The notes under the pieces are model-generated. The model was not told the DNA's origin. It did no database searches and saw only the letters and a list, made by a program, of their open reading frames with translations. The position numbers and the translations under genes are program-made. From a virus, in IMG/VR virus record IMGVR_UViG_3300033552_000060, positions 1-21,844 of that record: a DNA stretch of 21,844 bases. One strand, 5' to 3'. This document shows positions 1,481 through 11,772 of the stretch, piece after piece (within the stretch, counting starts at the first letter, position 1; each line of letters starts with the position of its first letter).

Positions 1481-4400
1481 TTAAACTGCCACAAAAGTTC
1501 CTGAAACGGTGACGCTTTTAATTTGTGTATCTGGATTTAAGAACATTAACTGTGCGTATAAATCACCGCTATCAATCCTTGACGCTAGTATAACCCAGCT
1601 TATATTGTCATTTGAGTATTCATAGTAAACCGTTCCACTCGTTCTTCTTAACCTAATCCATTGGTTTGCTTGTCTTACAATTGTTGGCGGTGCCACATCC
1701 GCATTTATTGATGATAAATGAATCATATTATCTTGAAAATAATAAAACATATAGTTATGATACACCCAATTGTCCGCTCCTGTAAGTAAATTGTCATGTC
1801 TTAATGCAAAAATAACCCTATCTAATTGTGCTAATGTCAATGTGCTAACAGAACATTTAAACCATCCATCAATACCAGATGCTAATTTCCTATTCATACT
1901 TATAATTCGAGAACCATTTGCGCTTGAACTTAAAAAGTCACCCAACACAACATCATTTGTTGCTGAAAAATTAACAATTGAAGAATAATCACTACTAATA
2001 AATGGTGCCACGCCTACGGCTAAAATTCTATAATAAAAAGTTTGATTCAAAGTTAATCCACTATGTTTATAGGTGTTGCCGTTTACACCTATTGAAGCAA
2101 GATTGATAAAACTTATGCCATCAGTGGAATACTGTAAAGTATAACCGTTATTATTTAATGATTGCGTCCACGTAAAATTAATTTCTGTTGATGTTGTTCC
2201 GGTCGATATTAAATTTGGTACTATCAATTTTAAAACATTTATGATGCTTTTTAATTTATCATAAATAACACCATGGCCGGCCGCGTTTGGATGCCCGGCA
2301 TAACCTTGATATGTTGCGTTCCAAGTACTCGCTGACGAATCACCGCCAGTGAACAAAGTTTGCGATGCATCAATATATTGTGAATAAGTTGATTTTATCC
2401 ATGCATTAAAAGTTCCGTTTGTTGGTGGAATTGTTAATGGATAAACGGATATTCCTTTCGCTGTTATTGCATTTATTAATGTTTGGTAATTAGCTTGATT
2501 CGTGCCGTTTGTTCCAAGCATTAAAAAAACCGATTTTGGATTTCTTAATCCAATTTCATTTAATGTGGTTTGCATATCTAAAATTTGTGCCCCTCCAGAT
2601 GCGTGTAAGGAAATTTTTTGTGTATTTCGGTTTTTAAATAAATCAAAAAACCGTGATGAACTGCTTTTTCTAATTACGGAGGAATCTTCCATAGAAAAAC
2701 CTTGCGTAATACTATCACCTACAAATAAATAGTCAATATTTTTTTGCTCATTGGATTTAACTGTAAATGAATTAATTTCCCATTCACCATCTAACACTTG
2801 AAACCCATATTGAAACATTGTTGGCTGACAATTTGCCGTTTCATTGTAATTGCTTACAAAAGATAAATCCGATGATTCTCCGGTACTTATATTTTTAACC
2901 GTGAAAATTATTTTATTTTTTATCCTTGTCATTTTAAAGGAAACCAAATCATTTTTTTCTATAAGTACAATATTTGTCGATGTTATTCTATCAGTCCATG
3001 TAGTTCCATCACTTGTCGTTGAAGCAATAGCCATTCCGGTATTTGTTCTTCTGCAACTCCACAAAAATTTATAAGACGTCTGTAACGAATCTAGAAAAGG
3101 CGCAATTCCCAATCCAAGTGTTTTACAAACACCAACAATTTCCAATTCAAAATTATCTAATGTGGACGTTCCATAATTAGAAAAAACAAATTTATCCGCT
3201 TGAAACACTCCAACGCTTTTTGATACGTTTAATATATTATTAAGAATTGAATATGTTGTGTTTGGTGCCGTGATTGTTAATTCTGTTGATGTTCTAATTC
3301 CTGGAATAATTGTTCCTAATACATTATCATTTGCGTTTAAAATATTAACATTAATAATGGGTGCCAATGGGTTTGTGCTGTCAATTGTCACATTCGTACC
3401 CGCAACTAACTTGTTTTGTTTTCCAGAAACTAAATCATTAATTTGTTTTTGCAATTTGCCAAAAGCTACTAAAACACTATCTGTAGAAACAATTGCACCT
3501 CCTGTAACAAGAGAAAGTCCACTTACTAAAGTAGCCAAAACCCGTGCTGTCGTAAAATACAAATTACTCGTACCTTCAGGTAATTGATCCGTGTTCGTGG
3601 CTCCACTTCCTGTTACCGCATTTTTTACCCAAATAATTTCTTCAGCATCCCAGTTGTAATTCACAACATCAGCAGCGCCTACTTCATTTACTTGTGCATA
3701 ATCGCCAATATTAGCTATTGGGTGTGCTGAAATTAAAGCGGCTTGGGTAAGATAAACTCCTTTAAATCTATTGTTGTAATCAGAACTATTTAGTTTTAAA
3801 GCTAGAGCAGCGGCTTGTGCGGTACTTACTGGTTTATTTAGATCACTTGTGTTGTCTACGTTTCCAAGTCCTATTCTTGTTTTGTCGTAAACAATCCCTA
3901 CATAATCCAAAAAGCCAGAATTACCAGCATCAAAGCGCCACTTGAAGTGAACGATTTCATTGTTTTTTATCGATAACGTTTCAGCGTTAGGGAAGGAGTA
4001 TTTAAAGTTTCCTGTTCCAGAAAGATGCAATACTTGTAAAATACCGCCATTTACATTTTTTAAATAATGATCCTTACCATCGTAAATAAATTTTTTATTT
4101 GCAGTAGAAACTGAAATAGATCCTAAAGAAGTTGCTGCAACCACCAGGAAATTTGTTGCTTGATCCGTTATAGAAAATTCCGCTTTATATCCTGAACCTG
4201 ATAACTTCTTGAAGGTAGCTTCTGATTTGGCGATGTACGCGTCACCAGCCACCGGAGCCGTTGGCTGTTCAATAACGCCATCAGTAACAACAATCAAAGT
4301 AGCTTGCACCGTATCGTTAGGAACGGGTTGTGTTACAGGATTACTTACGCTTTCAGTTCCTGCAATACGAGTAAACGTGTTTGACGTGTTTAAAACAATC

Positions 4401-4681
4401 AAATCAATACGTTGCATTCCTGCGGCGGCAAAAGGAATATTAATCACTACAGCCGCCGGATTTGTATACGGAACTCCATTAATAAGCCATTGCCAACCGA
4501 TATTCATCGTTAAACTTTGACCCACCAAAGAAAAACCAGTTTCCGAAACTAATTTATCGACATTATCGATTTTAGCTTCGAGATAATCGAAATTAGCGTT
4601 AATCATTTGGCCCGCACTTTTTGCGCCAGTACCCGTTTTATCGCCGGTTGTTGTTCCTAAAAAAAGCTTTTGTAGTGCCAT
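1481..4681 (-). CDS. Tail fibre / receptor-binding protein with SGNH-hydrolase and FN3 domains
   Basis: This 1066-aa protein is probably trimeric and sits at the tail tip. The N-terminus (~1-45, TTTGDKTGTGAKSAGQMINANF) resembles virion-attachment regions of other tail fibres, and NLYFTTARV near residue 375 is a motif often seen in phage fibres. A beta-rich, lectin-like region (~490-645) precedes an SGNH/GDSL hydrolase domain (~650-815). That domain has block I GDSITQ (Ser657), block II Gly near 696, block III LGTN (Asn725) and block V HPN (His797). An FN3-like domain (~818-905, WTQSLNNNGYTLQYSTDG) and a C-terminal concanavalin-like module (~907-1066) follow. The enzyme domain probably deacylates a surface glycan during adsorption. 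The usual Asp of block V DxxH is Tyr794 here. The start overlaps the upstream stop by one base (TAATG). Confidence 0.8.
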   Translation of the reverse strand: MALQKLFLGTTTGDKTGTGAKSAGQMINANFDYLEAKIDNVDKLVSETGFSLVGQSLTMNIGWQWLINGVPYTNPAAVVINIPFAAAGMQRIDLIVLNTSNTFTRIAGTESVSNPVTQPVPNDTVQATLIVVTDGVIEQPTAPVAGDAYIAKSEATFKKLSGSGYKAEFSITDQATNFLVVAATSLGSISVSTANKKFIYDGKDHYLKNVNGGILQVLHLSGTGNFKYSFPNAETLSIKNNEIVHFKWRFDAGNSGFLDYVGIVYDKTRIGLGNVDNTSDLNKPVSTAQAAALALKLNSSDYNNRFKGVYLTQAALISAHPIANIGDYAQVNEVGAADVVNYNWDAEEIIWVKNAVTGSGATNTDQLPEGTSNLYFTTARVLATLVSGLSLVTGGAIVSTDSVLVAFGKLQKQINDLVSGKQNKLVAGTNVTIDSTNPLAPIINVNILNANDNVLGTIIPGIRTSTELTITAPNTTYSILNNILNVSKSVGVFQADKFVFSNYGTSTLDNFELEIVGVCKTLGLGIAPFLDSLQTSYKFLWSCRRTNTGMAIASTTSDGTTWTDRITSTNIVLIEKNDLVSFKMTRIKNKIIFTVKNISTGESSDLSFVSNYNETANCQPTMFQYGFQVLDGEWEINSFTVKSNEQKNIDYLFVGDSITQGFSMEDSSVIRKSSSSRFFDLFKNRNTQKISLHASGGAQILDMQTTLNEIGLRNPKSVFLMLGTNGTNQANYQTLINAITAKGISVYPLTIPPTNGTFNAWIKSTYSQYIDASQTLFTGGDSSASTWNATYQGYAGHPNAAGHGVIYDKLKSIINVLKLIVPNLISTGTTSTEINFTWTQSLNNNGYTLQYSTDGISFINLASIGVNGNTYKHSGLTLNQTFYYRILAVGVAPFISSDYSSIVNFSATNDVVLGDFLSSSANGSRIISMNRKLASGIDGWFKCSVSTLTLAQLDRVIFALRHDNLLTGADNWVYHNYMFYYFQDNMIHLSSINADVAPPTIVRQANQWIRLRRTSGTVYYEYSNDNISWVILASRIDSGDLYAQLMFLNPDTQIKSVTVSGTFVAV

Positions 4682-4838: not shown

Positions 4839-7628
4839 TTAATAAGTTGTCATATATGATTCTGCCTCTACAGGTAATCCATTCAATCTTAAATTTCCAT
4901 TTGTCACCACAACCGTATTTAATTTGATCTTACTCCTTACGTGACTATAATCATTTATAGTTCCTGAATCAGCGGCTCCGGTTGCATTTAACGTTATATA
5001 AATCACATCCGAAGCTATATAATTTAGTGTGATTGGAATTGTTTTTGAATTACCTAAACTATTAGAACTCTCTATAATTACTCCGTTTTTTTCTATACTA
5101 TAACCCGCTGATGATTCCATACTAAATTTAGATCCTGACATATTTACCAAACCTTCGAAAACACCATAAAAAGCCAAAGAATCCGTAGGCATAATATTAG
5201 GTGTAATCGATAATTTTAATTTCCTACTCTTTTTACCCACAGCCATAACTACTTGAGTAACTATTTCAGAAACTAAATCCAAAGTGACGGTATACTCTTT
5301 GATTCTGATAATATTTAAAGAATCTAAAGCCGTAGCGCCATCGTTATCTGTAACCTGGATTTGGTACGTGTAATAATCTTCCGTGAGGTTTTGAAAAGTT
5401 GTCGCTAAAGCAAATGGCGTATTGATAATGTCGCCAAAACCTCCAACCGTTTTATTCCACACTTGACTTACAATTGTTCCGTCAGGATCATAAGCAGTCG
5501 CTAAAGCCGATGCCGTTGTTTGCGTATTTGTCAAGTAAATATCGTCACCAGCCAAAACTATTGGAGGTATATTTTCGTCACCAGGAGTTGTGGAACTTAC
5601 GTCCCTATAATGCGAGCGACCCAGCGTTAAAGTTGTTTTATTTTCATCAAGATTCCAAGAGCAGTTTAGGACTATGAAATCTTTTTCATACACGTATTTA
5701 AACAAAATAATATCATTGAACTTTACCGCATTCAAAGCCGTACAATCAAACTTTTCATGCGCTTCATTAAACATTCTTCGGTAAATGTTTGCAACCGTTT
5801 TACTGTACGAGGTGTTTTCTATTTTATAAACAGCGTCAGTCCATTGTAGCCAATGCGTTCGAGAAGATAAATTATCATCTGTAGCATATTTTTTTACCGT
5901 AAAACTCCCCGACGTTTGAGCCAATTCCGTTTGAACAACCATTTGCTCACCATCATTGAAATTATAAAAAACATTTATAACATTTATTAACAATCCCGAT
6001 ACGTAAACATTATGCATATTTTCTTTAATAAGATTCGCACCCTCAAGTTGTACAACACTATAATTATTACCTCTTAAAGAAAAATAATACAGTACAGGAA
6101 CTTCAATTTGATTAAAAAATAAAGTTTGCTCTTTCAATTTATATAAACGAAAACCTTTAGAAAAACCTGATTTATCATCGCTATAAATTAAGCCCACTTC
6201 TTTATCAATAGTGAATTCCCCGTTTATTACATCTGTTATTTTTTCAACTTCCTGAAAATCAATAATATCTACAGACGCTTTTATTATTTCAATTCCTAAT
6301 ATTCTATTTATATTAATTTGACCCGGTGGAGCATAAAATCGTACATCAATCAAACCTTCTTCTAAAAAAATATGTTCTATCTCTAAACCAGCTTTTCCAG
6401 AAGTGTCAAAAACCAACATTTCCTGATCAAGCACTATTCCTCCAAAATTGCTGTATATAACTACATTATTAAAAAATATTTCATACTTGAAAGGATTACT
6501 CCATAAAGCTATATTTTCCGGATTTTCATTAGGCCAAACAGGCTTCTTTATTTTAAAATCAAATTCAAATTTTACTTTTTGTCCTTTAGCTATGTATATT
6601 TTATTTTTTAAAGAAACTACTTTTAAATCATCTTGAATATAATTTACATACTGGCTTCCGTTGTAATAACCCATATTAAAAAGAGTGCAATTATAATCGG
6701 GATTAGTACATTTTAAATAATAATTATTATACCCCATCCATTCCGTTGCGTGCACTTCCCCTTTAACCCCGGTAACTATCGCCCAACCATCAATCGTTTC
6801 CTTACTTACTTCTTTAGAAAAATTAGGCGCTATTTTATCATGCGTAATAGTAATTTCATTATACGGCGGTATAGTTGTAAAAACAGGCGTTGCTAATGCC
6901 GTAATATCTTTTAATAAACGATTGTAAATTAATGTTCCGGTAAGCGTTCCTGTAGTGTTGTAAATCTTATAAGTAACCTGACGAACATGACGGGTATTTA
7001 CCCCTTCAATATACCAGCGGTTGTCGGCTTGGTAACAAACACTGAGCGTATCCTTTAATAAAGTTTCCAAAATGGAATAAGCATCTTGTTTTTTATCTTT
7101 ATCCAAGAAAGTAGCCGTATCAATGTATATCGTATTCCAATTTTTATTGACGAAGTTCTCAATAGCGGGATTAAAATATAAATCCAACTCGACACCCGTT
7201 AATTTTAGGCATTGGCAAAAAATATCAATAAGTGATTTTTCACGGGAATAATATTCATTGGGAAGGTATTTACCCTTTAATCTACCTAATCCATCACTAG
7301 CCGTAAAGGAGACGAAGAAACAACCGTTTTGATACGGCTCACTGTATAAATCAGGTAATATATAGCCTTGCCAAATAATACTATCATCCGCATTGTTTTT
7401 TACCAACACCTTAAAGCGATGTTCGTCTCCGGTAAAGAATTTAATAAAAGCGGCATCTTTTGCGGTTTTAGTAAGCATATCAAAATTAAACTCACTAGAT
7501 ACGATCGCCATTTCATCTTTAGTATCGCCACCATTCCACTTCAGGACAATTCCAGACGCAGAAGCATCCTCCAACACTAATTGTGTAAGCGGACTTGTCA
7601 TATCGAGTATGTCAATATAATAGCTCAT
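4839..7628 (-). CDS. Large tail-tip / baseplate-hub-like structural protein with PKD-like domain
   Basis: This 929-aa protein is encoded directly after the tape measure, where distal tail, hub and tail-associated proteins normally sit. The N-terminal part (~1-130) is beta-rich, with tail-protein-like stretches such as LKWNGG, SSEFNFDML, VLVKNNADDSIIWQGYI and FVSFTASDGLGRLKG, suggesting a hub or ring-forming fold. Residues ~687-775 (PPIVLAGDDIYLTN, then YDPDGTIVSQVW and VTDNDGATALDSL) form a PKD/Ig-like domain, a common decoration that binds glycans or other virion proteins. The C-terminal ~150 residues are again beta-rich. Its start overlaps the tape-measure stop by one base (TAATG). The role as hub is inferred from position and composition; no enzymatic motif was seen. 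Confidence 0.6.
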   Translation of the reverse strand: MSYYIDILDMTSPLTQLVLEDASASGIVLKWNGGDTKDEMAIVSSEFNFDMLTKTAKDAAFIKFFTGDEHRFKVLVKNNADDSIIWQGYILPDLYSEPYQNGCFFVSFTASDGLGRLKGKYLPNEYYSREKSLIDIFCQCLKLTGVELDLYFNPAIENFVNKNWNTIYIDTATFLDKDKKQDAYSILETLLKDTLSVCYQADNRWYIEGVNTRHVRQVTYKIYNTTGTLTGTLIYNRLLKDITALATPVFTTIPPYNEITITHDKIAPNFSKEVSKETIDGWAIVTGVKGEVHATEWMGYNNYYLKCTNPDYNCTLFNMGYYNGSQYVNYIQDDLKVVSLKNKIYIAKGQKVKFEFDFKIKKPVWPNENPENIALWSNPFKYEIFFNNVVIYSNFGGIVLDQEMLVFDTSGKAGLEIEHIFLEEGLIDVRFYAPPGQININRILGIEIIKASVDIIDFQEVEKITDVINGEFTIDKEVGLIYSDDKSGFSKGFRLYKLKEQTLFFNQIEVPVLYYFSLRGNNYSVVQLEGANLIKENMHNVYVSGLLINVINVFYNFNDGEQMVVQTELAQTSGSFTVKKYATDDNLSSRTHWLQWTDAVYKIENTSYSKTVANIYRRMFNEAHEKFDCTALNAVKFNDIILFKYVYEKDFIVLNCSWNLDENKTTLTLGRSHYRDVSSTTPGDENIPPIVLAGDDIYLTNTQTTASALATAYDPDGTIVSQVWNKTVGGFGDIINTPFALATTFQNLTEDYYTYQIQVTDNDGATALDSLNIIRIKEYTVTLDLVSEIVTQVVMAVGKKSRKLKLSITPNIMPTDSLAFYGVFEGLVNMSGSKFSMESSAGYSIEKNGVIIESSNSLGNSKTIPITLNYIASDVIYITLNATGAADSGTINDYSHVRSKIKLNTVVVTNGNLRLNGLPVEAESYMTTY

Positions 7629-10105
7629 TAGCCTATGCGGTTTTTACGGTTTGTAGCACGATCAAAAACAACTAATAAATCAGAACCTGATATTTTTAAA
7701 CTTGGAATAATTGCGGTCCCGTCACCACCATTCATAGCACCCCAAATGCGTTTTTGTTGGTCCGTATTCGAAATCATTTCCGCCGAGTTTACACGAGCCA
7801 TAATCTTATCGCCATAGTACGATGTACCATTAACGATTCCGCCATCTGCAAAAGCTTGTGTCCTTCCTCCAGAAGCTTTACCTAATGATGTTTTAGCAAA
7901 TGTTCCTATAGCTATTAAAGCCACTCCCGCCGCTATTGCAACAAAAGGATTTAAAGATTCTAAGGCTTTTTTAATTCCCAAAACAGCTAAACCTACCGTA
8001 ATTGCAATTTTTCCCACCTGAATAGCCATATCAGCTAATGTGGTTAAAAACAAATTACCTATAGACGAAAGCGAAGCACCGCCCGCAGCAAACTGCCCTA
8101 TCAAAGCACCAAAATTCTCAGCAAAACCGCCAATAGTATTTTGCCAAACAGCAGAAAACTGCTCATTAAAAGAATTCGCGTTTGCAACCATAGAATTTTG
8201 CTCCACTTCTATAACCGCTTTTGCACCGGAAACCGAAGCCGCTAAACGCGTCATCATTTGCTCGGTTGTTTCAACTGATTTTATTACAGAAGAAGGATCA
8301 AAATTCAACGCTTTTGCAAACTCAACTTTTGCAATTGCATCATCAGCCTGTTTAATCTGTTCCGCGGTTGTTACAACCGTGTCTCTAAATTCTTTTAGCT
8401 TTGCAATTTCAGCATCATACGCTTCAATTGTTCCAGTTGATAAACGATTCGTTATCGGGACATCTAGCGCGGATATATTTGCAGGCGCTTTTAATGCAGC
8501 TGCTTTTTTAGATTTAGTAGGAGCCACAACATCAGCAACGGTTGCTGTTGATGCCACTAATTTTAAATTGTCTTTATTTTTATTGTAAATTTCAGTAAGT
8601 AACTTAGACTCTGAATCATACTTTGTATTTTTTCGATCTAACGCTTCATTTGCAAATTGTAACAAGCGGTTGTTTTCTTCATAGAAAGTTTTTTCCGCTT
8701 CCCAACCCTTAGCAATCGCAGTTTCTCTTTTTGCATTGTAATCCGCTAATGCTTTTTCACGTTCAAAACCAGCTTTTATTTTGTCTGTTTGGTTTTGCTC
8801 TAATAAACGAGAAGCCGCACGAGCCGTTGCACCGGCAATTAAAGCCGCATTGTATTTCTCTACAGATACACGGGCCTTATCAGTATTAATATTTTCTAAA
8901 GTAAGATTCCCTAGATATTGAGGCGATATATTATTGATTGCCTGGATCGCTTTTAAACGATTGGCTTTGGTTTCATTTTCATTACGGGCCGTGATCAATA
9001 ACGATTCTAATGCTGATTTCTGATCAACAATTGAAGCCGTTGCTTCATCCGTTACTTTTTGCGTTAATTTTTGAGAATCGTTTAACTGAACCGAAGCCTT
9101 AGTTGTTTCGGCAAATGCGTTTTTAAGGACTAATAAAGCACCGCCCAACAAAACAACTCCTGCTAATATTGGCAGTATTGAAGCGCTTATTAAAGCAAAT
9201 CCAGCCACGATAAAAGGAATAGCTGATAATAAAGCACCAATACCTAGCAATAACGGACCTATAACCGCTACTAATCCAGCAACTACTACAATTACTGTTT
9301 TAGTACCCTCAGAAAGCTTTGAAAATGCTTTTATTTTTTCATTGATTGCCGTAATTACCTTTGTAAATAATGGCAAAATAACTGCGCCAAGCTGTTGTCC
9401 TACTTGCTTTAATGATTCAGTAAATATTCTTGTTTGATTGGCAGCACCGCCTGAAGTCCTTGTAAAATCGCCTTGTGCATTTTTTGTTTGCGACAAAACA
9501 TAATTGTATCTAAGATTTACTTTTTCGGCTTGAGACATTGTCTCATAGGTTTTTGTAATACCAGAATTCAAAGCGAATTGTTTTAAATTCACTTCCGTCA
9601 TTATGATACCTAATTTCTTAAGCGATTCTGTCTCACCTGTGAATATTGCTGCTAAAGCTGTATTTGCCTGCTCAATTCCAATGTTTTTAAAAGAAGATAA
9701 ATCCGCTGCTAAACCAACTAAAGAAGTCGACATTTTCGCAGCAGCCGCTACAGGCAAACCCATTCCTGTTGCCATATCTCCAAACAAAGAAGCAGACTCT
9801 AAAGCAGAGCCTTCAGCAATACCAAAACTTTCTAAAGAGGTTTTTGCAAATTCTTTTACTTGCTGCGAAGATCCTTTAAATGCAACATCAACTTTATTTA
9901 ACGATTCGTTGTAATCACTAGCAAATTTTACCGCAGCTGCACCGGCTGCCAAAATTGGCAACGTCACAAAAGCCGACATAGAGCGTCCTATTTTCTGGAA
10001 CTGTTGACCTGCTTTATCAATTTGGCGTAACGAGTTTTGCATCTCAGAAGAGAAGCCACGTAAATCAGCAGTAAACTTGATATTGATACTCGCTAAACTT
10101 GCCAT
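7628..10105 (-). CDS. Tail tape measure protein (TP901 core type)
   Basis: This 825-aa protein sets tail length and passes into the host envelope during DNA ejection. The N-terminus (ADLRGFSSEMQNSLRQIDKAGQQFQKIGRSMSAF) leads into the conserved TP901-type core (~55-240, including KFASDYNESLNKVDVAFKGS, GIAEGSALESASLFGDMA and TNTALAAIF-like stretches). Long hydrophobic segments lie at ~268-335 and ~690-750, and an Ala/Lys-rich helical region with coiled-coil character lies between them. The C-terminus is Gly-rich, with 'FADGGIVNG'. At roughly 1.5 angstrom per residue this implies a tail near 120 nm (inference). It is the first gene after the second terminator/promoter cassette, so it probably opens a separate tail/lysis transcript. 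Confidence 0.9.
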   Translation of the reverse strand: MASLASINIKFTADLRGFSSEMQNSLRQIDKAGQQFQKIGRSMSAFVTLPILAAGAAAVKFASDYNESLNKVDVAFKGSSQQVKEFAKTSLESFGIAEGSALESASLFGDMATGMGLPVAAAAKMSTSLVGLAADLSSFKNIGIEQANTALAAIFTGETESLKKLGIIMTEVNLKQFALNSGITKTYETMSQAEKVNLRYNYVLSQTKNAQGDFTRTSGGAANQTRIFTESLKQVGQQLGAVILPLFTKVITAINEKIKAFSKLSEGTKTVIVVVAGLVAVIGPLLLGIGALLSAIPFIVAGFALISASILPILAGVVLLGGALLVLKNAFAETTKASVQLNDSQKLTQKVTDEATASIVDQKSALESLLITARNENETKANRLKAIQAINNISPQYLGNLTLENINTDKARVSVEKYNAALIAGATARAASRLLEQNQTDKIKAGFEREKALADYNAKRETAIAKGWEAEKTFYEENNRLLQFANEALDRKNTKYDSESKLLTEIYNKNKDNLKLVASTATVADVVAPTKSKKAAALKAPANISALDVPITNRLSTGTIEAYDAEIAKLKEFRDTVVTTAEQIKQADDAIAKVEFAKALNFDPSSVIKSVETTEQMMTRLAASVSGAKAVIEVEQNSMVANANSFNEQFSAVWQNTIGGFAENFGALIGQFAAGGASLSSIGNLFLTTLADMAIQVGKIAITVGLAVLGIKKALESLNPFVAIAAGVALIAIGTFAKTSLGKASGGRTQAFADGGIVNGTSYYGDKIMARVNSAEMISNTDQQKRIWGAMNGGDGTAIIPSLKISGSDLLVVFDRATNRKNRIG

Positions 10106-10126
10106 TGTAGTACTTTTTGAAGTGGA

Positions 10127-10244: not shown

Positions 10245-10613
10245 CTAGCAATTGCTCCTGCAATTATAAGTCACTTTATCATCTAGTAATTTATAATCTT
10301 TATTCAATTTTTCTTTGTAAGGCGTTTTAATAAATTGAATACTTTTATAAGTCCATCCTACATCATCCAGCGCATTACTTAATATAGGTTCTTTATTATA
10401 ATTACATAATTTAGTTTTAGGAACGGCGGTCCTATTACTGGCAATATCATAAAATACCGCTTTATCACTTGCTACATTTACAACTGTTACCGGAAAAGTA
10501 AATTCCGTGTAAACGATTGTTTTTTTCTTTTGTTCCAGATGGGTTGTAGTTCCCAGTACCGTAAAGCTAATCATCCCGATTAGCAAAATTAAGAACGATT
10601 TAATTAAGCGCAT
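10245..10613 (-). CDS. Small secreted/periplasmic protein of unknown function (probable moron)
   Basis: This 122-aa protein starts with a clear Sec signal peptide: MRLIKS, then a hydrophobic core LILLIGMISFTVLG at ~8-21, with likely cleavage near TTT. The mature part is small, Lys/Tyr-rich and beta-like, and ends with a CRSNC pair of cysteines that could form a disulfide. The start overlaps the end of the T chaperone frame by 14 nt, and a strong terminator follows the stop. An exported protein is out of place among cytoplasmic tail-assembly genes, so it may change the infected cell surface, for example by superinfection exclusion. That role is inference only. I recognise no family. Confidence 0.65.
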   Translation of the reverse strand: MRLIKSFLILLIGMISFTVLGTTTHLEQKKKTIVYTEFTFPVTVVNVASDKAVFYDIASNRTAVPKTKLCNYNKEPILSNALDDVGWTYKSIQFIKTPYKEKLNKDYKLLDDKVTYNCRSNC

Positions 10614-10962
10614 TGTTTTTTAATTTTTCATCCTGCAGGCGATAAAATTCTTCTACTTTTTCAATTTCTTCCAGAAGTATTGCATTGTCTTCTTCGGTGA
10701 ATTCTTCCTGCAATTCCGTTTCCCAGGGAAACTCTAGTATTTGGTTTTCTTTTAGGTTTTTACTGTTAGGCGCTAAACTGGCCCACATTATTTTACGGGC
10801 AATCATCCAGCGTTCCCTGCTTAAATTATCTTCCCGTTTGCGGTAGCCATTCACGGTGTTTGCAAATTCACGCGGGGTAAGCCTGTAGAAATAATCTAAA
10901 TTTAAATTCAAGTGCCCTAAAGCCAGTTCTTCGAGATCATCCCAGGAAGGATCTAAAGGTTC
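10600..10962 (-). CDS. Tail assembly chaperone T domain, made as -1 frameshift extension of G
   Basis: This frame is open from the slippery heptamer to TAA at 10602-10600, adding 120 residues to the G protein. The T part includes DYFYRLTPREFANTVNGYRK (from ~20 residues in) and ARKIMWAS, typical of phage tail chaperone C-termini in which an aromatic 'LTPREF' helix is followed by a basic helix. It ends in an acidic, helical tail. The frame has no good ATG of its own: the only nearby start is TTG at 10911, well inside a continuing frame. Frameshifting is therefore the better explanation. As in lambda G/GT, the fusion should bind tape measure through G and recruit tail tube subunits through T. 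Confidence 0.8.
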   Translation of the reverse strand, partial: EPLDPSWDDLEELALGHLNLNLDYFYRLTPREFANTVNGYRKREDNLSRERWMIARKIMWASLAPNSKNLKENQILEFPWETELQEEFTEEDNAILLEEIEKVEEFYRLQDEKLKNNALN

Positions 10963-11351
10963 TTTTTTGCTCCGCTCCTCAGAGCTTTCAACTTTCCCGG
11001 AGCCGTAACTTCTTTAGGCTGTTCCATGGATTTAATAAATTCCTGCATTACAATTGAAATGATGGAAAGAAGATTTTGTGTTTCTTCCAGATACATGTCC
11101 TCTAATTCCGTTTTTGTCAGTTGCTCTTTGTTTTCATCATTGCATTCTACTGATGCAATAATCAGATCGTTTATAACCGAAAGTTGTTTGAAAGTAACAT
11201 CTTCAGTCATTCCAGATAACGTTGTTAATACGTGTTGCTGAACCGTCATAAGCGATGGCAAATCCCATTTTTCGCCTAATGCTGCAAAAACCCCTAAGCC
11301 AAATCGCAGCTTAAAGGTTTTGTTTTTAATTTTTACAATAATTTCACTCAT
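10953..11351 (-). CDS. Tail assembly chaperone G
   Basis: This 132-aa protein lies between the major tail protein and the tape measure, the standard place for the G chaperone. The N-terminus (MSEIIVKIKNKTFKLRFGLGVFAALGEKW) has the short beta-hairpin plus 'FGLGV..ALGE' pattern common in Bacteroidota tail chaperones, followed by helices. The last codons read GCA AAA AAG AAC CTT TAG. The A-AAA-AAG heptamer lets a fraction of ribosomes slip to -1 and continue into the T frame, giving a 250-aa G-T protein. Unshifted G ends two residues after the slip site. Its start ATG is 1 nt after the stop of the major tail protein. Confidence 0.82.
   Translation of the reverse strand: MSEIIVKIKNKTFKLRFGLGVFAALGEKWDLPSLMTVQQHVLTTLSGMTEDVTFKQLSVINDLIIASVECNDENKEQLTKTELEDMYLEETQNLLSIISIVMQEFIKSMEQPKEVTAPGKLKALRSGAKKNL
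10962..10968 (-). promoter_or_regulatory. -1 ribosomal slippery site A-AAA-AAG
   Basis: The heptamer is in the correct phase (X XXY YYZ: GCA AAA AAG). A short inverted repeat AGATC/GATCT (10954-10950 and 10938-10934) begins 7 nt downstream and could act as a weak stimulator. Slippage gives K-K-E-P-L-D-P and joins the open T frame without any stop. Confidence 0.85.
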
Positions 11352-11352
11352 C

Positions 11353-11772
11353 TTACAGCGCTAATGTTTTAGTAAGATTTCCGTTTCCTTTGAAAGAGAA
11401 AGATCCTGTTACTGAATTACCATTTTCGGCAGTAATATCAGAACTTTCAACATACACTTTTCCGGAAAGGATAAAGTTTCCTGTAGCGCCATCCGTAAAC
11501 GTAATATCAATTTCAGTACCTGCCAGTTGTAAAGTGACAATATCCATAAAATCCAATTGCGTTGATGCAGCCGGCTTATTAGCCACTAAAGATTCTGCAG
11601 ATATATTCCACGCGTAATTTGATGGTGTTGATACCGTTCCTTGCGTATCTTTTGTAGCAATTTCTTCTAATTTTGTCGAAATCGACAACTTACAAGACAT
11701 TGCGTGGTAAAGCGCTTTTCCATTGTATGAAAAACGCACATTTTTTCCTTTGTAAATTTGACCTGCTGCCAT
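11353..11772 (-). CDS. Major tail (tube) protein, TP901-1 type
   Basis: This 139-aa protein should polymerise around the tape measure into the tail tube. The sequence is beta-rich. It opens with AAGQIYKGKNVRFSYNGKALYHAMSCKLSIS and EEIATKDTQG, matching the TP901-1/phi13 major tail protein pattern in which a 'g.di.l.v.g..ia.at..sls...e..e.s.KDsg' start is followed by a W residue (WNISAESL). The C-terminal half (SGKVYVESSDITAENGNSVTGSFSFKGNG) is also typical. It lies between the tail completion protein and the G chaperone, with 1-5 nt gaps. No extra Ig-like domain is present, so this is the minimal tube subunit. Confidence 0.82.
   Translation of the reverse strand: MAAGQIYKGKNVRFSYNGKALYHAMSCKLSISTKLEEIATKDTQGTVSTPSNYAWNISAESLVANKPAASTQLDFMDIVTLQLAGTEIDITFTDGATGNFILSGKVYVESSDITAENGNSVTGSFSFKGNGNLTKTLAL

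Follow-up and report, generated by a model that had tools for sequence, protein, structure and literature searches.

A predicted −1 ribosomal frameshift at G_GGA_AAG, with a candidate downstream hairpin, in the tail assembly chaperone genes of a phage of the Bacteroidota group

The G and GT proteins of phage lambda are tail assembly chaperones, reportedly described by Levin in 1993 and by Xu in 2004. Joining of G and T by frameshifting is an established strategy according to two reports (PMC5009743, PMC4493119), the second of which concerns Lactococcus phage TP901-1, in which the 3′ end of gpG holds a GGGAAAG slip site that was altered to prevent gpT production. The tail frameshift of corynephage phi16, predicted from a single genome, combines GGGGGAA with a Shine–Dalgarno (SD)-like element and an H-type pseudoknot (PMC5506516), and −1 frameshifting in Escherichia coli dnaX is stimulated by a stem loop (PMC7282821). 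A sweep of downstream structure windows by PRFect, a tool whose training set was actinobacteriophage tail chaperones, gave ‘no apparent accuracy peaks’ (PMC10885494). Ribosomes of Bacteroidia have an occluded anti-SD, and an SD-assisted prfB frameshift is found in 523 of 726 genomes (PMC8710568). The G/GT strategy is thus known, ordinary and widespread. The signal variant described below, in which a hairpin follows G_GGA_AA(G/C), is less ordinary and is the new element; no description of this pattern was found in the available text of papers on frameshifting in Bacteroides or Flavobacterium phages or in Bacteroidetes tail assembly chaperones, or on tail chaperone hairpins, a search whose scope was non-subscription papers.

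The DNA analysed, here called the window, is IMG/VR virus record IMGVR_UViG_3300033552_000060 (21,844 nt). Recognizable genes encode an integrase, terminase, portal, protease, HK97-type capsid, tail tube, tape measure, holin and muramidase, and the window belongs to a tailed phage that is probably temperate. The closest named terminase is that of Cellulophaga phage phi39:1 (48 % identity), which supports the phage group, Bacteroidota, named in the original prediction. As in lambda, the order is tail tube, G, T and tape measure, with T in the −1 frame (PMC5009743), and an in-phase G_GGA_AAG lies close to where G ends (position 10109 in lambda). All features of the window given with coordinates here are on the minus strand. 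The major tail tube gene (11353–11772; phrog_1407, E 1.9e-15; Phage_tail_2, E 9.1e-6) lies directly upstream of G, and the 825-aa tape measure gene (7628–10105; phrog_1535, E 9.2e-40) lies downstream of T. Unlike in lambda, one extra ORF of 122 aa separates T from the tape measure gene. This ORF (10245–10613) overlaps the end of T and has a hydrophobic N-terminus; in HK97 an annotated moron (gp15) occupies the equivalent place. Elsewhere in the window are a 929-aa tail protein with a PKD domain (4839–7628; E 3.7e-11) and a 1066-aa tail-end protein with a GDSL-like lipase/acylhydrolase domain (1481–4681; E 1.3e-7, 32.8 bits against a cut-off of 32.9).

G (10953–11351) is a zero-frame ORF of 132 aa with the 3′ end GCA AAA AAG AAC CTT TAG; its stop codon (10953–10955) is 43 nt past the start of the GGGAAAG heptamer. 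The T frame (10600–11013), −1 to G, opens at 11013 after TAA 11016–11014 and closes at TAA 10602–10600, and would supply the T domain of a GT fusion of 250 aa by computed translation. No ATG, GTG or TTG occurs in this frame before the TTG at 10911, and its first ATG falls within the T domain. A conserved T block, WD..E..ALG, lies upstream of that TTG, the sole possible start. The original prediction had claimed a lambda-type G/GT fusion by −1 frameshifting, with products of 132 and 250 aa, an open −1 extension, an LTPREF motif and no ATG belonging to T. The lengths, open frame, missing ATG and motif are all present in the ORFs and translations, and comparison with relatives strongly supports the fusion.

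The T of the window matches Pfam PF09550 (Phage_TAC_6) with E 2.5e-5 and 25.0 bits, above the curated cut-off of 23.4. G alone has no convincing Pfam match; Phage_TAC_12 matches 11 of the 16 aligned G proteins (best 4.8e-5), the window's G not being among the 11. The AlphaFold model of G (pLDDT 80.6; tail disordered from residue 113) had no significant match in a fold search against the PDB. Among viral structures (BFVD) its top match is a tail assembly chaperone (E 1.7e-3, probability 1.00), and 15 of the 50 matches listed are named TAC. Both proteins can be assigned by family, G as a tail assembly chaperone at the family level. The families, Phage_TAC_12 and TAC_6, differ from those of the lambda chaperones. 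Distant homologues of G and T, gp19 and gp20, lie between tail and tape measure genes in phi39:1, in which gp14–gp18 and gp21–gp22 are annotated as found in the virion and gp19 and gp20 are not so annotated; this fits chaperones that leave the tail. The phi39:1 pair, like that of Bacteroides phage Bacuni_F1, is annotated as two separate hypothetical proteins, so that the GT fusion does escape gene finders, as had been anticipated.

The first-collected relatives with both genes comprised 4 close relatives, 10 further distinct IMG/VR records and an Aquimarina contig (L021), 15 in all. The contig was the one match in a profile scan of genome contigs, a scan of these for close relatives having returned no match. 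A T profile search gave 69 viral IMG/VR records with a T homologue. By tblastn, the only named phages recovered were phi39:1 and, weakly, Bacteroides phages F2, F4 and Bacuni_F1; hosts are named among the relatives only for the Aquimarina contig, phi39:1 and the Bacteroides phage matches. For counts of sites, 69 sites (67 records, the window and L021) were thinned to 47 non-redundant ones below 75 % identity.

T is −1 to an overlapping upstream G in all 69 IMG/VR records, and of the 68 in which G is sufficiently long, 67 have a canonical X_XXY_YYZ heptamer within the overlap, in phase with G (L088 is without one; the G of L068 is cut by the contig end). In the window the proposed slip site is G_GGA_AAG at 10992–10998, in the context TCC|G GGA AAG and read ..CCG GGA AAG in the G frame. 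This is the lambda heptamer, no other GGGAAAG occurs on either strand of the window, and it lies 30 nt upstream of the A_AAA_AAG (10962–10968) that had been named as the slip site. A_AAA_AAG is at the position and in the G phase claimed for it, but none of the 15 first-collected relatives carries it at the equivalent place, whereas G_GGA_AAG is in phase within the overlap in 15/15. In place of A_AAA_AAG there is G_AAA_AAG in L002, L003, L010 and L017, A_AAA_AAA in L009 and other sequence in the rest. Two additional relatives represented by G only also carry an in-phase G_GGA_AAG. AAAAAAG occurs 16 times on the minus strand and 5 times on the plus strand of the window, and is in phase twice in other genes. 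It had also been argued that relatives should have no conserved T start and should keep the heptamer; the former is borne out and the latter, for A_AAA_AAG, is not.

Within the overlaps of the 47 non-redundant sites all 36 copies of GGGAAA(G/C) are in G phase, with none in either of the other phases, against a background of 3 in 15,373 positions of the upstream G body. From the codon use of the window, the probability of Gly-Lys being written GGA AAG after a G is about 0.012, and this form occurs at 0 of 24 other Gly-Lys pairs in 16 other genes of the window. The G stop immediately follows the heptamer in L045, L052, L053, L055, L069 and L086, and for L086 the heptamer is also the exact point from which T is open; together these pin the slip site. 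G_GGA_AAG is thus an in-phase slippery heptamer in the overlap that is conserved in relatives. Judged by sequence comparison, it is highly probable that a −1 frameshift at 10998–10992 joins G and T, and the earlier choice of A_AAA_AAG was very probably wrong: the finding is right in kind and wrong in site. Given the conservation of one heptamer and not the other, the expected junction is ...TAPGK-VESSEERSKKEPLDP... and not ...LKALRSGAKK-EPLDP.... The corrected site alters both the fusion that is predicted and the peptide that should be sought. A length of 250 aa is the same from either heptamer because only the residues between the two sites differ, and the peptide KKEPLDP would arise from either and does not discriminate between them.

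We infer the occurrence and rate of frameshifting, the stimulating effect of the hairpin and the roles in tail assembly in the following form. Most ribosomes would stop at TAG 10955–10953 and release G (132 aa). A minority would slip back one base on G_GGA_AAG (10998–10992), helped by a hairpin at 10985–10969 that is met 6 nt downstream, and would make GT (250 aa), consisting of G residues 1–120 followed by VESSEERSKKEPLDPSWDD.... If lambda is a guide, the tape measure protein may be coated by many G and few GT, with the T domain recruiting the tail tube protein. Sequence comparison shows how the frames lie, that the heptamer is kept in phase, that T has no start of its own, the order of the genes, the family of T and, for the group, the place and covariation of the hairpin. 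The phage very probably makes a longer tail-building helper protein by a −1 slip of this kind.

A role for A_AAA_AAG as the main slip site is improbable, given its absence from that place in all first-collected relatives and the retention of G_GGA_AAG in every one; additionally, the −1 frame between the two heptamers is conserved in close relatives (VESSEERSKKEP, VESSDERSEKEP, AESSDERSEKEP). As a minor second site, catching ribosomes that had not slipped on GGGAAAG, it is a possible but doubtful candidate. It is in G phase, the stem rule given below allows it a possible stem at a spacer of 7, and L009 has an in-phase A_AAA_AAA at the same distance from GGGAAAG. Likewise, A_AAA_AA-type heptamers are the sole one of the two main types in 12 of the 47 non-redundant sites, so such sites are used in the group. 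Separate production of T from TTG 10911 (103 aa) by reinitiation after G would have in its favour that the TTG ORF exists and that T genes are annotated separately in phi39:1 and Bacuni_F1. However, the invariant or nearly invariant T residues W18, D19, E22, A25, L26 and G27 lie upstream of this TTG, start-like codons of T occur at varying places in relatives, and the in-phase heptamer would be left unexplained, which makes this route very unlikely. We give equally little credence to transcriptional, as opposed to ribosomal, slippage on an A-run. Runs of A6 in the window, A8 in phi39:1 and A9 in Bacuni_F1 would suit it, but A6 is short for transcriptional slippage, and most close relatives have no six-A run in the overlap and yet keep the frame relation and GGGAAAG.

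A 6 nt spacer, TTGAAA (10986–10991), separates the heptamer from the hairpin GCTCTG-AGGAG-CGGAGC (10969–10985), the proposed frameshift stimulator. The 47 non-redundant sites comprise 35 G-type, G_GGA_AA(G/C), and 12 A-type, A_AAA_AA; loci with both heptamer types (5/47) were assigned to G-type. Folding energies are low in most G-type sites when 26 nt are folded from 4 nt past the heptamer. At this expected offset the folding z averages −1.97 over the 35 G-type sites, where the background is −0.07 (the offset means having an sd of 0.16), while the 12 A-type sites have no dip (mean z −0.16; G-type vs A-type Mann–Whitney p 0.004). A stem was then scored as the best within 25 nt, starting at a spacer of 5–7 nt with a score of 11 or more; this rule and the 26-nt offset were chosen after viewing a few examples, which may bias the counts, as may the assignment of two-heptamer loci to G-type. 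Such a stem is found downstream of 26 of the 35 G-type sites, 0 of the 12 A-type sites and 269 of 4,755 control positions in the same genes (5.7 %); shuffled sequences gave a mean of 1.55 and at most 5 in 35. The binomial value for the excess, 1.6e-25, treats related sites as independent and is not to be taken literally. With the 5 two-heptamer loci excluded the counts are 23/30 and 0/12, and after thinning to 33 sites 19/24 and 0/9. The stem is missing by the rule at 9 of the 35 G-type sites. In L083 an upstream GGGAAAC carries the stem instead, and the A-type L036 has a strong stem at spacer 4.

In an alignment of 16 relatives all five pairs change on both sides. The covariation score is 0.365, compared with 0.214 for shuffled alignments (0/500 as high) and 0.043–0.238 when the stem is slid along. 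Only 63.8 % of the cells are paired because several rows use another register or none, and RNAalifold predicted no pairs from all 16 aligned sequences, several rows of which are out of register. The mean pair probability of the window's own hairpin drops from 0.98 when 30 nt are folded to 0.34 with 60 nt, a length at which a longer fold competes, and the window's 59-nt fold prefers another structure (z +0.78). A covarying stem 5–7 nt past the heptamer, within the 5–9 nt expected of such signals and above chance, is seen for the group, and in the window as a local structure with a competing fold. Stimulation of frameshifting by the hairpin is probable for the group on this comparative evidence, and fairly likely in the window itself.

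The overlap bases code for a basic G tail (mean charge +3.9) and an acidic GT linker (mean −1.75) across 36 non-redundant sites; this contrast may follow mechanically when AAG/AAA codons are read with a one-base shift back. Such a bias raises the possibility that the hairpin is a by-product of dual coding in a Lys/Glu-rich overlap and no stimulator, and similar GAAGAAA loops are indeed common to several close relatives. Against this, the A-type overlaps code for the same tails and none of the 12 has the hairpin, the stems vary in sequence and covary, and the folding dip is limited to offsets near one place, the same rule finding stems at 5.7 % of positions elsewhere in the same genes. We consider a by-product unlikely, and retain the hairpin as the candidate stimulator.

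A hairpin 6 nt downstream sets these sites apart from lambda, which has none by the same rule. Eight outside phages were compared (lambda, HK97, PhiR12_5, HK225, mEp043, phi80, Ayreon and Vibrio Val-yong3), of which lambda and PhiR12_5 have an in-phase GGGAAAG; lambda relatives are near copies and of no use as a varied control. TP901-1, which shares the GGGAAAG slip site at the 3′ end of G and lacks a downstream stem of this kind, makes three outside sites; none of the three has a stem at spacer 5–7 (PhiR12_5 has one at 8). A downstream RNA structure has been proposed alongside a tail chaperone frameshift in phi16 too, but here it is a simple hairpin that recurs and covaries across a family. 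The arrangement of slippery heptamer followed by stem loop resembles that of dnaX. dnaX also uses an upstream SD. No clear SD-like peak was seen upstream of the G-type heptamers: an SD-like element is present in the 16-nt window just upstream at 8 of 35 sites, against 0–6 at other printed offsets. Absent SD use would fit the occluded anti-SD in Bacteroidia; given the SD-assisted prfB frameshift there, these sites may nevertheless use an SD.

We lean towards the view that this tailed-phage family, which includes Bacteroidota phages, uses either of two designs that are interchangeable: G_GGA_AA(G/C) followed at exactly 5–7 nt by a hairpin, or A_AAA_AA(G/A/C) without one. Several switches from one to the other would have occurred, as though the weaker slip site required structural help to hold the G:GT ratio where upstream SD help is unavailable. 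On this reading the A-type site would be slippery enough alone and G_GGA_AAG would be helped by the hairpin. On a tree of T with the overlap left out (and without L026, which has a broken T frame), parsimony puts the changes of slip type at 7, at least 3 of which fall on well supported branches; the designs thus seem to interconvert. How many switches there were is uncertain because the tree is weakly resolved, with 23 of 43 inner branches open. Slip type was also tested against hairpin by independent pairs; only 3 such pairs lie on well supported branches, none of them opposite, and with that number the test cannot reach significance. Natural sites with and without a hairpin in one gene family offer a direct test of how slip-site strength and RNA structure are balanced to set a protein ratio in hosts with a hidden anti-SD.

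Several loci depart from the frame relation or run lengths seen in the window. In phi39:1 (L006, 3340–3360), unlike in the window, the deposited sequence has G and T meeting across an A8 run with T in frame −2/+1 to G, which would reflect either recoding of another kind or a sequencing error in the homopolymer. In Bacuni_F1 (L022, 1500–1516) the homologues are joined in the −1 frame across A9. In L002, at about 5450, an indel breaks the T frame, which resumes in the G frame, through either damage or an assembly error.
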